NCBI RefSeq assembly: GCF_000191045.1
Contig: NC_015185.1
Coordinates: 812,501 to 876,500 of the forward strand
Origin: Desulfurobacterium thermolithotrophum DSM 11699
GTDB taxonomy: Bacteria; Aquificota; Aquificia; Desulfurobacteriales; Desulfurobacteriaceae
DNA length: 64,000 nt
Direction: 5' to 3'
Shown: positions 12,017 through 50,784 of the stretch, piece after piece
Layout of the letters: each line of letters opens with the position of its first letter
How positions within the stretch are numbered: position 1 is the stretch's first letter
Position numbers and translations under genes: made by a program
Notes under the pieces: generated by a model
Told to the model about the DNA's origin: nothing
Database searches by the model: none
Seen by the model: only the letters and a program-made list of their open reading frames with translations

Positions 12017-12298
12017 ATGAATCAGATTTGTAAGTTACATATAAAACAGGAAATTCTTGATAAAGTAAAAAGGCAAGTGATTCTATGTCAAGATGGTTCT
12101 CTTTTTATTCCCCAATATCCTGGAGGAATTGACTATTCAAAATGTACAGGTTGTGGTAAGTGTGTAGAAGTCTGTCCTCAAGGATGTATTAAATTAGAGG
12201 AAGTAGATGGAAAATTAGTAGCTATTTTTTCCAATTGGGAGCTCTGTATTGGTGATGGAATATGCAAAATCATTTGTCCTGAGAATGCTTTTTTGTGA
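12017..12298 (+). CDS. FdxB-like 2[4Fe-4S] ferredoxin, first ORF
   Basis: Small electron carrier of 93 residues. The first cluster motif is canonical (CTGCGKCVEVCP). The second is CIGDGICKIICP, in which Asp replaces the second Cys, as in the Pyrococcus furiosus ferredoxin where Asp ligates a labile Fe. The N-terminal portion (DGSLFIPQYPGGIDYSKC) resembles nif-associated ferredoxin III (FdxB). It ends at TGA 12296-12298. The next ORF continues in the same frame with no other stop, so this TGA may be a true stop or a recoded codon (see findings). The electron partner is unknown; Mo enzymes are a reasonable guess given the neighbours. Confidence 0.85.
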   Translation: MNQICKLHIKQEILDKVKRQVILCQDGSLFIPQYPGGIDYSKCTGCGKCVEVCPQGCIKLEEVDGKLVAIFSNWELCIGDGICKIICPENAFL

Positions 12299-33790: not shown

Positions 33791-33933
33791 TACCTTGCAA
33801 GAGGTAGCGAAGTATTAATGAAAGCTATCATTTTTCAGATGTCGGTTCCAATTTAAATTATAGTTTTAACTACAAATTGTTGAGGATAAATCGTCAACTA
33901 CTCCTCCCTGACAGAAGGAGCTTGTAGCTGATG

Positions 33934-35127
33934 CTAACAGGTAGCACCGCTACATTGGGACGGTTGGCAGCGCCCCACTGGGAGGGATATACCACTCCCA
34001 GTCCCGACTTCTCCTCTTTGGAGAGAAGCCAGATAGTTTTTAACTATGTTCCTGCTGGCGTTAAGGTCAGCGTTAAGGGAGTAACTACAATGTTTGCAGA
34101 CAAAGTGAGACTGGTCAATTCGGTTAGAACGAGAAATGTGTCCGCATCTGCTACACTTTTGAGAGGTGTAGCGTGCATCTACATAAACCACTCTTATTCC
34201 CTTAGCTTGAGCTTTATACTCTATAAACTGCTGGAGCTGTGCAAAGTTCCAGCTGTGTATCCAGCGTCTATTTTGCTTGTTAACCTTAATCCTTTTCCTG
34301 ATTCCTTTGAGCTTCTCAAGGACAATTACTCCACCAGCAGGAACAAGGCTAACTATCTCCTTTGCTATCCTATGGTTAATAGCAGTCCGAAACCGTTTCT
34401 CCTTCTGGGAAAGTGTCTTGAGGTGCCTCTTTGCAGAAGGAGTGCCTTTGGACTGCAATCTCTTGCGAAGTGCAAAATATCTTTCGGAAACTGCCCTTAT
34501 GTGTCCCCCATCAAAGAACTTGTTAATTTTTCCGTCAGGAGTAGAAACTACCGCAAGGTTACGGAGACCAAGGTCAACTCCGACAAAGTAGTTAACAGGT
34601 TCTACATCGGGGAATTCCTTTTCACAGGTAATGTTGAGAAAGAACTTTTTAAGTCTCTTGTCATACTTGAGATTCGCAGAAGTAACTCTCCAGTCAAGGT
34701 ATTGCTTGAAGTAATCAGGAACTTTTACCTTAAACTTCTGTCTTCCTTTAACGGTAGCGAGGGAGACTTCTTCTCTTTCCAGCCAAACAGTATAGGAACG
34801 CCTATCATAACGGATAGCAGGATTGTTGCTCTGAGGACATTTGCTTTTGAGTCCTTTCTTCTTTCTCTTGATTGCAGATTTGAGGCTTTCAGTAGCTACA
34901 ACCCTTGCAGAAATAACGAGTTGAGAAGGGAGAGAGGTTTTTTCTCTTACCGTGTAATAGGTAAGTTTGTGGAGCTCAATCCCGTTCCAAGTTTTTGCAC
35001 TCCAACCAACTTTACAAGTATAGTTGTAGGCAAACTTATACTGCTCAATGGTTTCAAGGAGTGTTTGTTTCTGTTCTTCAGTAGGTTTAAGAACAAGTTT
35101 AAGAGTGCGTTGCAGTTTCATATTCAT
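33934..35127 (-). CDS. tnpB: TnpB RNA-guided nuclease, apparently intact (element B)
   Basis: A 397-residue protein of the IS605 OrfB/TnpB family, ancestral to Cas12. RuvC motif I is FVGVDLGLRNLAVVS, motif II IVLEKLKGIRKR (catalytic Glu), and motif III SLNADLNASRN (catalytic Asp). The Zn ribbon is complete (CSRCG and CKHC). The N-terminus MKLQRTLKLVLKPTEEQKQTL is typical. The C-terminal 30 residues overlap the right-end RNA hairpin region, as expected when the omega RNA comes from the tnpB 3' end. All catalytic residues are present, so it could be active. Confidence 0.93.
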   Translation of the reverse strand: MNMKLQRTLKLVLKPTEEQKQTLLETIEQYKFAYNYTCKVGWSAKTWNGIELHKLTYYTVREKTSLPSQLVISARVVATESLKSAIKRKKKGLKSKCPQSNNPAIRYDRRSYTVWLEREEVSLATVKGRQKFKVKVPDYFKQYLDWRVTSANLKYDKRLKKFFLNITCEKEFPDVEPVNYFVGVDLGLRNLAVVSTPDGKINKFFDGGHIRAVSERYFALRKRLQSKGTPSAKRHLKTLSQKEKRFRTAINHRIAKEIVSLVPAGGVIVLEKLKGIRKRIKVNKQNRRWIHSWNFAQLQQFIEYKAQAKGIRVVYVDARYTSQKCSRCGHISRSNRIDQSHFVCKHCSYSLNADLNASRNIVKNYLASLQRGEVGTGSGISLPVGRCQPSQCSGATC

Positions 35128-35158
35128 ATATTACTTCAATACCTGCAAACTTTCAAGT

Positions 35159-35199
35159 GCGGTCTCTTCCTCTCCCTGACGGAAGGGGTCTCCAACCGC
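35159..35199. repeat. Left-end hairpin of element B
   Basis: Outer arms GCGGT/ACCGC enclose an inner imperfect palindrome around CTCCCTGACGGAAGGGG. The same sequence bounds element D at 62729-62769, and a related hairpin bounds element C at 47387-47431. Confidence 0.75.
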
Positions 35200-35213
35200 A
35201 AGGAGGAAAAAAG

Positions 35214-35876
35214 ATGAACATGAATAATTCTGTGTTACCAAAAATAGACTATTCTGTTTTAAAAGCTACAGCTACAGAAAGTGATATTATTGAAGCTGCT
35301 AAAGATACTGAAAAATTTAACTTTGCTACGCTCTGTGTATTTCCAAAACATATAGAAATAGCTAGGAAGATACTTCCAGAAAAGAAAGTCTCTACAGTTA
35401 TTGGTTTTCCTCTTTCTCCTATTCCATTAAGTTTAAAGCTTAAGGAAATTGAATTTTCTTTAGAAAAAGGAGCAGGAGAGTTTGACATAGTAGTTAACCT
35501 GAGTGCTATTAAGGAAAAAAACTGGACTGAAGTTGAAAAAGAGTTAAAAGAAATTCGTAAACTGACAGACAAAAAGGTAATTAAGCTTATATTTGAATGC
35601 TGCTATTTAACAGAAGAGGAAAAAAGAGTCCTTTGTAAATTAGCTATCGAAAACGGCTGGGATTACTTAAAAACATCTACAGGTTATGGAAAGTACGGTG
35701 CTAAAGGTGAGGATGTAAAACTTCTTGTTAGCTGTTCACAAGGTAGAGCAAAAGTAAAGGCTTCTGGAGGTATTCGAAATCTTGAATCTACACTTAAATT
35801 TATAGAACTTGGAGCAGACAGAATAGGTACTAGTGCTGGTAAAGAGATTGCTTATGAAGTGTTGCATTGTAGGTAA
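35214..35876 (+). CDS. deoC: Deoxyribose-phosphate aldolase
   Basis: Cleaves 2-deoxyribose-5-phosphate to acetaldehyde and glyceraldehyde-3-phosphate. The 220-residue TIM barrel has FATLCVFPKH, VIGFPLSP, EFDIVVNLSAIK (catalytic Asp), KLIFECCYL and the Schiff-base lysine in DYLKTSTGYG. ATG 35214 follows AAGGAGG. The frame extends to 35157, but those codons belong to the tnpB element end. The RBS and the first codons are identical to those of the TPR gene next to element D, suggesting the element end supplies the translation start. It overlaps ribF. Confidence 0.93.
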   Translation: MNMNNSVLPKIDYSVLKATATESDIIEAAKDTEKFNFATLCVFPKHIEIARKILPEKKVSTVIGFPLSPIPLSLKLKEIEFSLEKGAGEFDIVVNLSAIKEKNWTEVEKELKEIRKLTDKKVIKLIFECCYLTEEEKRVLCKLAIENGWDYLKTSTGYGKYGAKGEDVKLLVSCSQGRAKVKASGGIRNLESTLKFIELGADRIGTSAGKEIAYEVLHCR

Positions 35877-47465: not shown

Positions 47466-48552
47466 GGTGGACACCCTACAATAACCTTTGAATACCACAA
47501 GGAGGTGTCCACCGATGAAACAATTGAAAAGATTCAAAGGAACATCCCTCCATATATCCAGCACAAATACGGCGTTCAAAGAAACCCTGAAAAAAGGAAG
47601 AAGAGTAAAAAAGAAGCTTGACCTAACAAAAGACAGAAATGTTAAAAGGAGACTCAAATGGATAGAGTATTACCACAAAACAGGCAACGCCAGAAAAACA
47701 TGCAGATACTTTGGCATCAGTCCAACAACCTTCTACAAGTGGAAAAAAGATACGACAAGTACGGGATAGAAGGACTCCAAGACAGAAGCAAAAGACCTCA
47801 TAAAGTAAGACAACCACAAATAGAACCTGAAATAGAACACATCATCGTCACAATAAGGGAAAAATTCCTAACCTGGAGCAAAGAAAAGATAGCAGCCTTC
47901 ATGGAAAGATACCTAAATGTAAAAATATCATCCTCTACAGTTTACAGGGTTCTCAAAAGACACGGACTAATAGAAAGAACCTGGAAACTAAAAAGTACCT
48001 ACAAGAGGAAGAAACAGAAAGGGAAAAAGAACCGCACCAGAAAAGGACTAAGAGCAGACAAACCAGGAACAATCCTCATGGACGTTAAATACCTCTACTG
48101 GTGCGGTAAAACCTTTTACCAGTTCACGGCAATAGACAAGTTCACCCGAATAGCATTTGCCAAGGTTTATTCTACAAAAAGCAGCAGGAGCGGAAGAAGG
48201 TTTTTTGAAGAACTTGAAAAATTTCTTCCCTTCAAGATAGAGAAAGTTCAAACGGATAACGGGAGCGAATTTTTAGGGGAGTTAGACGAATATCTTAAAA
48301 GAAAAGGAATAGAACACTACTTTAGTTATCCGAAATCTCCCAAGACTAATGCGCATGTAGAAAGGTTTATTCAAACGACAGAAAGTGAACTATGGATGAT
48401 AGAAGGAACAGAACCGACTGTTGATGAGATGAATAAAAAACTTTTTGAGTATTTAAAGATTTACAACTTTCTTAGACCCCATCACTCTTTAAATTACAAG
48501 ACTCCCGCTGAGAAGTTTGAGGACTATATTAGAAGTCATCAAGGTGTCCACC
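47466..48552 (+). mobile_element. IS481-like insertion sequence
   Basis: About 1.09 kb bounded by inverted copies of GGTGGACACC (47466-47475) and GGTGTCCACC (48543-48552). A second inverted copy lies at 47504-47513, just before the transposase start, making a hairpin over its RBS. No clear target duplication was found. It is inserted in the leader of tnpB element C. Confidence 0.65.
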
Positions 48553-48620
48553 ATGTATTGAACTCGAACAGCACCTTGAAACTAAACAACCGTAAATATA
48601 AATTACAACTGCAGAGATGA
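47515..48620 (+). CDS. IS481-like transposase in two frames (probable -1 frameshift)
   Basis: The N-terminal frame (ATG 47515 to TAG 47769) carries a helix-turn-helix (NARKTCRYFGISPTTFYKW). The second frame (to 48620) carries the integrase core with DDE residues in LMDVKYL, VQTDNGSEFLG and NAHVERFIQTTESEL. The frames join cleanly (KWKK then RYDKYGIEGL) if a -1 shift occurs at the A6G run in TGGAAAAAAGATAC near 47741-47753. This could be programmed slippage, as in IS3-type elements, or a mutation. The frame reads past the right inverted repeat and its stop overlaps the tnpB start as ATGA. Confidence 0.75.
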
Positions 48621-50035
48621 AAACAAAAAGAGCAATAGTCTTTGAACTAAACCACTTGAGCATAGAACAGGAGATAATACTTGGACACTTCACCTACCAC
48701 GCTGGAAGACTGTGGAATCAAGCCAACTACCTCGTAAAGAACAGGTTAGCAAAACCTGACTATAGAGACCTATACAACAAACTCAAAGACACATCCTTAC
48801 ACCTGTGTTCCCTACAGTCCCGATGTGCTCAAATAGTCCTTGACGAACTATCAAGAGGATGGAATAACTTTTTCAAGTTCTTGGAAAATCCCGAAAAGTT
48901 CAAGAAGAAAGGGATAGAAATTGTTAGACCACCGAGTTACGTAAATCCCGAAACACCCCACAGAGTAGTAACATGGGATAAGACAGGATTCAAGATAGAA
49001 GGAAGTAGGATAAGACTTTCACTATCCAAAAGCTTAAAAGAGCACTTACTCAAAAAGTTTGGATTTTCTCCTGATTACCTGTGGATAGAGACAGGGTATA
49101 AAGACTTAGAGAACCTTAAAGTTCTCAACGTTCAGGTAGTTCCGTATAAGTCCTATGGACAGGTAAGCTTTAAGCTGGTAGTGGTATATGAAAAAGAAAC
49201 TCCTGAAGTTGAACCTAAAGGGGACAAAGTATTAGCGATAGACTATGGAGTATCAAACTTTGCGACCTGTGTAGTAGAAGGAAATCCCATTTCCTACATC
49301 ATAGACGGAAGAGGATTAAAGACATTACTTAGGAAGAAACTCAAGAAGATAGTTAACCTCCAGAGTAAGCTTGACAACCTCAAAAACAAAGGACTTCCAA
49401 CGATTGCATTAGAGAAGAAACTTCACAGACTTTGGAAGAGCGTAAAGAACTTGCTAAGAGACTTTGCACACAAGGTAAGCAGTCTCATAAAGAGACTTGC
49501 AGTTTTAAGTAGAGTAAAGACGGTAGTAATAGGTAAGGTTCAAGAATCAAAGAACAAAGAGAACGACTTACCAGACCTTGTGAATCAGATGTTCAAACTA
49601 TTACCTCACGGGAAAGTAACGGAATACCTAACCTACAAACTCAAAGAAGTTGGGATAGAGGTCAGACTAATAGACGAAAGCTATACTTCCGTTGCCGACT
49701 CCTGCGATAGTGAAGCAGGAGTTACAAAAGGAAGCAAGGGTAACGGAAGGAGAGTGAAGAGAGGACTATTTTTGTCGTCGGTTAAAGGACTCATAAATGC
49801 AGACGTTAACGGAGCGAGGAACATACTGAGAAAGTTCAAGAAGAGGTGGTTTGACCTTGTGACGGGACTCAAAAAAGTAGTCAAGATAAGAATTTACGAA
49901 TTAAGCAAAGGTATCTCCGAGTCCCTGCTGTATGTAGGGATAGGAGTAGAGGGCAGTGTGAACCTGCCCGGAGGGATAAGGGTAGGAATAACTTACCAAA
50001 CTCCCTCAGAAGCTCCTTCGTATAGGGCGGAGTAG
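48617..50035 (+). CDS. tnpB: TnpB-family nuclease without Zn ribbon (element C)
   Basis: A 472-residue TnpB-like protein. RuvC motif I is AIDYGVSNFATC and motif III INADVNGARN. The segment that should hold the Zn-ribbon cysteines reads ESYTSVADSCDSEAGVTKG, with one Cys only. Motif II lacks the usual Glu (VVIGKVQES); the Glu in IDESYTS may replace it, as proposed for TnpB groups with a rearranged catalytic Glu (inference). The last 20 residues are encoded by the right-end hairpin region. The frame is intact despite the IS481 insertion upstream. Confidence 0.85.
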   Translation: MKTKRAIVFELNHLSIEQEIILGHFTYHAGRLWNQANYLVKNRLAKPDYRDLYNKLKDTSLHLCSLQSRCAQIVLDELSRGWNNFFKFLENPEKFKKKGIEIVRPPSYVNPETPHRVVTWDKTGFKIEGSRIRLSLSKSLKEHLLKKFGFSPDYLWIETGYKDLENLKVLNVQVVPYKSYGQVSFKLVVVYEKETPEVEPKGDKVLAIDYGVSNFATCVVEGNPISYIIDGRGLKTLLRKKLKKIVNLQSKLDNLKNKGLPTIALEKKLHRLWKSVKNLLRDFAHKVSSLIKRLAVLSRVKTVVIGKVQESKNKENDLPDLVNQMFKLLPHGKVTEYLTYKLKEVGIEVRLIDESYTSVADSCDSEAGVTKGSKGNGRRVKRGLFLSSVKGLINADVNGARNILRKFKKRWFDLVTGLKKVVKIRIYELSKGISESLLYVGIGVEGSVNLPGGIRVGITYQTPSEAPSYRAE

Positions 50036-50139: not shown

Positions 50140-50754
50140 TTAAGAAAGAATTTCATCAATAGTAATTACTTCTCCAACCTTTCCAGCAATGTCTGGACCA
50201 GGCTTTAGTGTTTTCTTACCAGGTCTCCAGTTAGCTGGGCAAGCTTCATCTGGATGTTCGTAAACATATTTCCACGCATCAAGCTGTCTTAAAAGTTCAT
50301 TTACGTTTCTACCAACTGGTGGATTGAGAACTTCTTCAGCTACGATGATTCCATCAGGATTAATAATAAATCTACCTCTTCTTGCAATACCAGCTTCTTC
50401 AATGTAAACACCATACTTTCTAGAAACTTCTCCATTTGGATCTGCACCAAGAAGGAACTTAACATCTTTCATAAGAGGTTCTACTTTGCAAAAGATCTGG
50501 TGGCTGAATACAGTATCTGTAGAGATAGCAAGAACTTCTGCTCCACGTTCTTTAATTTCTTCATACTTTGCTGCGACCGCAGCAAGTTCTGTTGGTCAGA
50601 CGAATGTAAAGTCAGCTGGGTAGAAACAAAGAACTAAAAACTTTCCTTCATTGTTTGGAACGTAATCAGAAAGTTTAACTTTGTCATACTTATCGTTTAC
50701 AGGATCGTAAACCTGTACTTCAAACTCTGGAGCCTTTTGCCCTACAAGAGCCAT
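50140..50754 (-). CDS. Selenocysteine-containing 2-Cys peroxiredoxin (PrxU/AhpC family)
   Basis: Reduces H2O2 and organic peroxides. From ATG 50754 (RBS AGGAGG) the frame runs 204 residues, with one in-frame TGA at 50598-50596, codon 53. That is the peroxidatic site: DFTFV-U-PTE, where the family has DFTFVCPTE. Downstream regions are intact: VLAISTDTVFSHQIF, the Arg in GIARRGRFIINPDG and the resolving Cys in DEACPANWRPG. A hairpin with a GGUC loop follows the TGA, as expected of a bacterial SECIS. A nonsense mutation exactly at the one residue where Sec makes sense is very unlikely. A simple ORF caller would report only 50140-50472 (110 residues). Confidence 0.95.
50568..50585 (-). promoter_or_regulatory. 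Bacterial SECIS hairpin in the peroxiredoxin mRNA
   Basis: A 7-bp stem TTGCTGC/GCAGCAA closes a GGTC tetraloop. GGUC is the same apical loop as in the E. coli fdhF SECIS recognised by SelB. The loop begins 17 nt after the TGA, within the usual spacing. The bulged U of the E. coli stem is absent. Confidence 0.85.
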
Positions 50755-50784
50755 CTTCTCCTCCTGAAAATTATTTTCAATTTT

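Follow-up and report, generated by a model that had tools for sequence, protein, structure and literature searches.

A predicted selenocysteine-containing 2-Cys peroxiredoxin in Desulfurobacterium thermolithotrophum and its relatives

Known selenocysteine peroxiredoxins and the gene of D. thermolithotrophum

A selenocysteine (Sec) peroxiredoxin is known from Eubacterium acidaminophilum (Sohling 2001, as cited in PMC13188914), and by 2006 a dozen such proteins from several phyla had been listed, with peroxiredoxin already among the larger bacterial selenoprotein families (PMC1794560). An earlier note on the present DNA placed Sec peroxiredoxins in a few anaerobes, which understates this range. 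For the Aquificae, the 2006 count was two selenoproteins in two families, and most rare selenoproteins were argued to derive from Cys ancestors (PMC1794560). Our search, which covered part of the literature, found no paper on selenoproteins of either Desulfurobacterium or the Aquificota; within that scope, a Sec peroxiredoxin of Aquificota is apparently unreported, and the gene described here would add this family to their selenoproteins. The organism, D. thermolithotrophum, is a vent bacterium with a genome consisting of a single contig of 1,541,968 bp. Strain BSA-T is a strictly anaerobic sulfur reducer with an optimum of 70 °C (PMC3368423).

The gene, here called prx, occupies 50140..50754 on the minus strand of the window (the whole 64,000-nucleotide stretch that was analysed), with its ATG at 50754, its TAA at 50142-50140 and a Shine-Dalgarno sequence, AGGAGG, 5' of the ATG (50760..50765, minus strand). 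It specifies 204 amino acids of the typical 2-Cys AhpC/Prx1 type (Pfam AhpC-TSA, E = 5e-37, plus 1-cysPrx_C). As the earlier note had claimed, a single in-frame TGA (codon 53; 50596..50598, minus strand) falls exactly at the peroxidatic residue, within DFTFV-U-PTE, and the peroxiredoxin is otherwise intact, the resolving cysteine, Cys172 (50239..50241, minus strand), being present in the motif EACPANW. The product, therefore, has all the features of a typical 2-Cys peroxiredoxin: the AhpC-TSA domain, the PxxxTxxC/U motif, a C-terminal resolving Cys and the 1-cysPrx_C domain. In an alignment of 25 homologues, with Sec written as Cys, Pro46, Thr50, residue 53 and Arg126 are invariant. The in-frame UGA aligns to the conserved catalytic Cys of the homologues, with homology on both sides, which is the pattern expected of a bacterial selenoprotein. 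Solved structural relatives are 2-Cys peroxiredoxins and AhpC; an AlphaFold model superposes on AhpC/Prx1 structures with a TM score of about 0.82, its active-site loop having low local confidence at residues 50-52. The best NCBIfam match is NF040737 (PrxU), at 233 bits, below the curated equivalog cut-off of 270 bits; the AhpC equivalog TIGR03137 (cut-off 272 bits) is likewise not reached, at 187 bits. Standard table-11 ORF calling recovers merely a 110-residue C-terminal piece (50140..50472), the truncation that had been anticipated, and reading UGA as Sec corrects this annotation. On the sequence evidence, we are highly confident that prx would encode a typical 2-Cys (AhpC/Prx1-class) peroxiredoxin with Sec as the peroxidatic residue, inserted at the UGA via SelB and a GGUC hairpin.

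The predicted SECIS hairpin and the selenocysteine machinery

In Escherichia coli fdhF, the apical loop of the SECIS likewise reads GGUC and follows the UGA at a distance of slightly less than 20 nt. The prx hairpin is alike in loop and spacing, and probably differs in the sequence and shape of the stem. It lies at 50568..50585 (minus strand), from nucleotide +11 to +28 past the TGA, where the earlier note had placed a 7-bp GGUC-loop hairpin, and reads TTGCTGC-GGUC-GCAGCAA: a 5' stem (50585-50579), the four-nucleotide loop (50578-50575) and a 3' stem (50574-50568). The bSECIS model published in a 2026 review comprises an apical loop of 3-9 nt, a stem of 4-16 bp, a G within the first two loop positions and a UGA-to-loop spacing of 16-37 nt (PMC13188914); the prx element, with a loop of 4 nt, a stem of 7 bp, GG and a spacing of 17 nt, conforms to it throughout. 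A search of Rfam gave no usable SECIS match for this hairpin.

Random synonymous recodings of the prx region reach a stem of at least 7 bp in 18% of cases, so that the stem alone is weak evidence, and combine stem with GGTC loop in 0.025%. The minimum free energy is uninformative, 18% of synonymous recodings being equally stable, and the argument for a SECIS is, therefore, based on the loop, codon constraint and phylogeny. The arrangement is more than chance would give: of the 2120 TGA trinucleotides in the window, a single one combines GGTC at +18/19 with at least 5 bp of stem. Genome-wide, the pattern TGA-N16-S-GGTC-S occurs at five sites, two of which combine a stem with a long open frame, namely, prx (7 bp) and selD (8 bp); fdhA, with its GGTC one base further out, lies outside the pattern. 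Synonymous constraint, measured as codon conservation beyond expectation, is highest gene-wide in the seven-codon window that starts at codon 56 (56-62), and this corresponds to the hairpin. Codons 58-61 are GCT-GCG-GTC-GCA, each found in 18 of the 19 Sec sequences, and these include rare codons, since GCG and GTC account for 3% of the Ala and 9% of the Val codons in the window, respectively. Across 11 distinct SECIS sequences, 98.7% of stem cells are paired, with two-sided compensatory changes at two of the seven pairs, although the sample is small and related and this covariation is, therefore, supporting evidence only. Exceptions among the relatives are the loop AGUU in L041 and the loss of one base pair in L026. 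None of the Cys homologues compared carries a comparable GGTC hairpin.

The genes that the earlier note had proposed looking for, selA, selB, selC and selD, were all found: the genome encodes SelA (637 bits), SelB (443 bits, with its winged-helix domains), tRNA-Sec (80 bits; ARAGORN anticodon tca) and SelD (373 bits). Moreover, selD is itself interrupted by an in-frame TGA (L054:1501-2427; 8-bp stem, GGTC at +18 after the TGA), as is fdhA, once (L125:1501-3198; 5-bp stem, GGTC at +19). In prx, as in selD, the GGTC opens the apical loop at +18, such that the three genes share a distance of 18-19 nt past the TGA. Sampled by family and pattern searches, the selenoproteome, therefore, numbers at least three genes. 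Taken with the conserved TGA described below, the machinery, the fit to the bSECIS model and the loop and spacing common to selD and fdhA support the proposal that this thermophile decodes UGA as Sec; at the level of sequence, SelB-directed decoding of the prx UGA is possible and conserved. TGA is also an ordinary stop here, terminating 11 of the 39 long ORFs in the window, and a truncated prx product may, therefore, coexist. Window frames joined across the TGAs at 12296 and 30551 were rejected as further Sec genes: neither is among the GGTC pattern hits, and the former TGA additionally falls between two separate ferredoxin-like ORFs.

Conservation, alternative readings and a proposed mechanism

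Codon 53 is TGA in 18 of the 21 Desulfurobacteriaceae genomes sampled, and the remaining three have the Cys form only; together with one further bin, the 18 genomes provide 19 distinct Sec sequences, all with the TGA at this codon. SelA was found in 22 of 22 sampled genomes of the family, the Cys-only ones included, and there is, therefore, no visible loss of the Sec trait in the latter. L053 and similar one-stop matches from Aquificales were discarded as Sec genes, their active-site codon being Cys. The sequence downstream of the TGA is, by codon comparison, under strong purifying selection, with a dN/dS of about 0.06 before the TGA and a median of 0.04 after it, figures that are rough because synonymous sites are near saturation. 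Hence, the relatives keep the TGA with full downstream conservation, rather than showing the stop and decay that the earlier note had named as an outcome that would count against it.

Pseudogenes are usually recognised by just such a lone in-frame stop, and 34 of them are annotated in the genome paper of D. thermolithotrophum (PMC3368423), so the TGA might be thought a sequencing error or a broken TGT or TGC codon in a decaying, dead gene. However, the same TGA recurs across the 19 distinct Sec sequences, which derive from different genomes and assemblies; the Shine-Dalgarno sequence, start and resolving Cys are intact; and the synonymous constraint is explicable only by an RNA element. Conservation of the TGA together with the strong constraint beyond it refutes this reading, to which we attach a negligible probability. 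Alternatively, the hairpin might be conserved for another role, such as mRNA stability, attenuation or termination, with the short product being functional. A terminator-like call does overlap the hairpin, yet on the opposite strand. Within this family the Cys homologues lack the hairpin, and its position and loop relative to the UGA match those of selD and fdhA; a product of 52 residues would, moreover, miss most of the fold, which leaves this explanation scarcely credible.

It is also very unlikely that the UGA is read as Cys or some other residue, either by near-cognate suppression or, when selenium is scarce, through thiophosphate-dependent synthesis of Cys on tRNA-Sec, to yield mostly a Cys peroxiredoxin. 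The sulfur-rich habitat and the presence of Cys at the same locus in some relatives would suit such a reading, but the genome has a complete Sec pathway, the form of the SECIS is common to three genes, and a specific hairpin would be needless if any residue sufficed.

Under the preferred reading, that of a Sec peroxiredoxin, SelB carrying Sec-tRNA(Sec) would bind the GGUC-loop hairpin just past the UGA during translation of the prx mRNA, and Sec would be delivered at codon 53 in place of termination. The selenolate would then attack peroxide to give a selenenic acid, which would react with Cys172 of the other subunit to give a selenenylsulfide; a thioredoxin- or glutaredoxin-like protein would, in turn, reduce this bond. 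We infer this peroxide cycle, and hence peroxidase activity, from family membership; that the enzyme may be a fast selenoperoxidase, as the earlier note had suggested, is an expectation from chemistry. As for the reductant, a thioredoxin_3-type protein (G000:1488182-1488412) may be hazarded as the partner.

Origin of the Sec gene and variation at its locus

PrxU of E. acidaminophilum (NF040737) shares with the prx product the peroxiredoxin fold and the TxxU active site. Nevertheless, prx (233 bits; relatives, 223-233 bits) is no closer to this family than is its own Cys paralogue (236 bits), in contrast to L115 (324 bits), which lies above the PrxU cut-off. L115:3001-3570 and L116:3001-3579 are Sec peroxiredoxins from deltaproteobacterial-type bins with AGTT at +18 past the TGA; they have EATPAGW in place of the resolving Cys that the prx product keeps. 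The Sec peroxiredoxins of Campylobacterota (Sulfurovum and Sulfurospirillum bins; L098, L103, L107, L110-L112 and L114) have their TGA at the same residue as prx and, in those aligned, also keep the resolving Cys, but they form a clade of their own and are followed by a conserved but different RNA element, GCUGC-CGUGAAU-GCAGC.

In a tree of 78 sequences, the Sec genes require at least three changes. The AU test rejects placing all of them in one clade (p = 9e-5), and with it a single origin of the sampled Sec peroxiredoxins; a clade of Desulfurobacteriaceae and Campylobacterota Sec genes is also rejected (p = 9e-8). Because the sample was collected with the prx product as query and includes long branches, the tree does not settle the number and direction of the Sec/Cys changes. 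As tree and AU test separate the Desulfurobacteriaceae lineage from both classical PrxU and Campylobacterota, Sec probably arose separately in the peroxiredoxin of this family.

The locus is syntenic. On one side lie an rluA-type gene and rpoD; on the other, most of the relatives compared have a polysaccharide deacetylase gene. Among relatives, the place is taken by a Sec gene alone in, for instance, L059, by a Sec gene followed by a tandem Cys gene in L028, and by a Cys gene alone in L043 and L067; the genome studied has the Sec form only (one match). The Cys AhpC/Prx proteins of the family (e.g. L043, L067) are 80-85% identical to the Sec form, and in some genomes are found at this same place, between the rluA-type and deacetylase genes. 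Unlike prx, they have a Cys codon, no GGTC hairpin and no four-residue insertion preceding the active site, and differ over the hairpin (AVNA versus AVAA). Taking these observations jointly, we lean slightly towards a scenario in which a family-level Cys AhpC gave rise to the Sec peroxiredoxin independently within Desulfurobacteriaceae, the Sec gene carrying a SECIS of the GGUC-loop form seen in selD and fdhA; the one locus would then have come to hold the Sec, tandem or Cys forms, and the Sec enzyme, as the sole peroxiredoxin of its type in the genome studied, would provide a selenium-dependent peroxide defence for a strict anaerobe. This series at one locus, in genomes that all encode SelA, offers natural material on why lineages keep or drop Sec, and the predicted, probably thermostable selenoperoxidase has a Cys version that allows direct comparison.

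In the genome studied, a mobile element adjoins prx and occupies the place of the relatives' deacetylase gene (window 47488-50035, plus strand). It comprises an HTH ORF, an rve-type (DDE) transposase ORF and a TnpB (OrfB_IS605/Cas12f-like), the start of the last overlapping the end of the transposase by 4 nt, which is an unusual pairing. A second TnpB copy, 73% identical, lies at G000:656474-657766, with no such partner alongside. Elsewhere in the window, a pair of long ORFs, one on each strand, cover nearly the same stretch (33931-35217, plus; 33934-35127, minus): the former (428 aa), which has no Pfam match, is probably spurious, and the latter is a TnpB.
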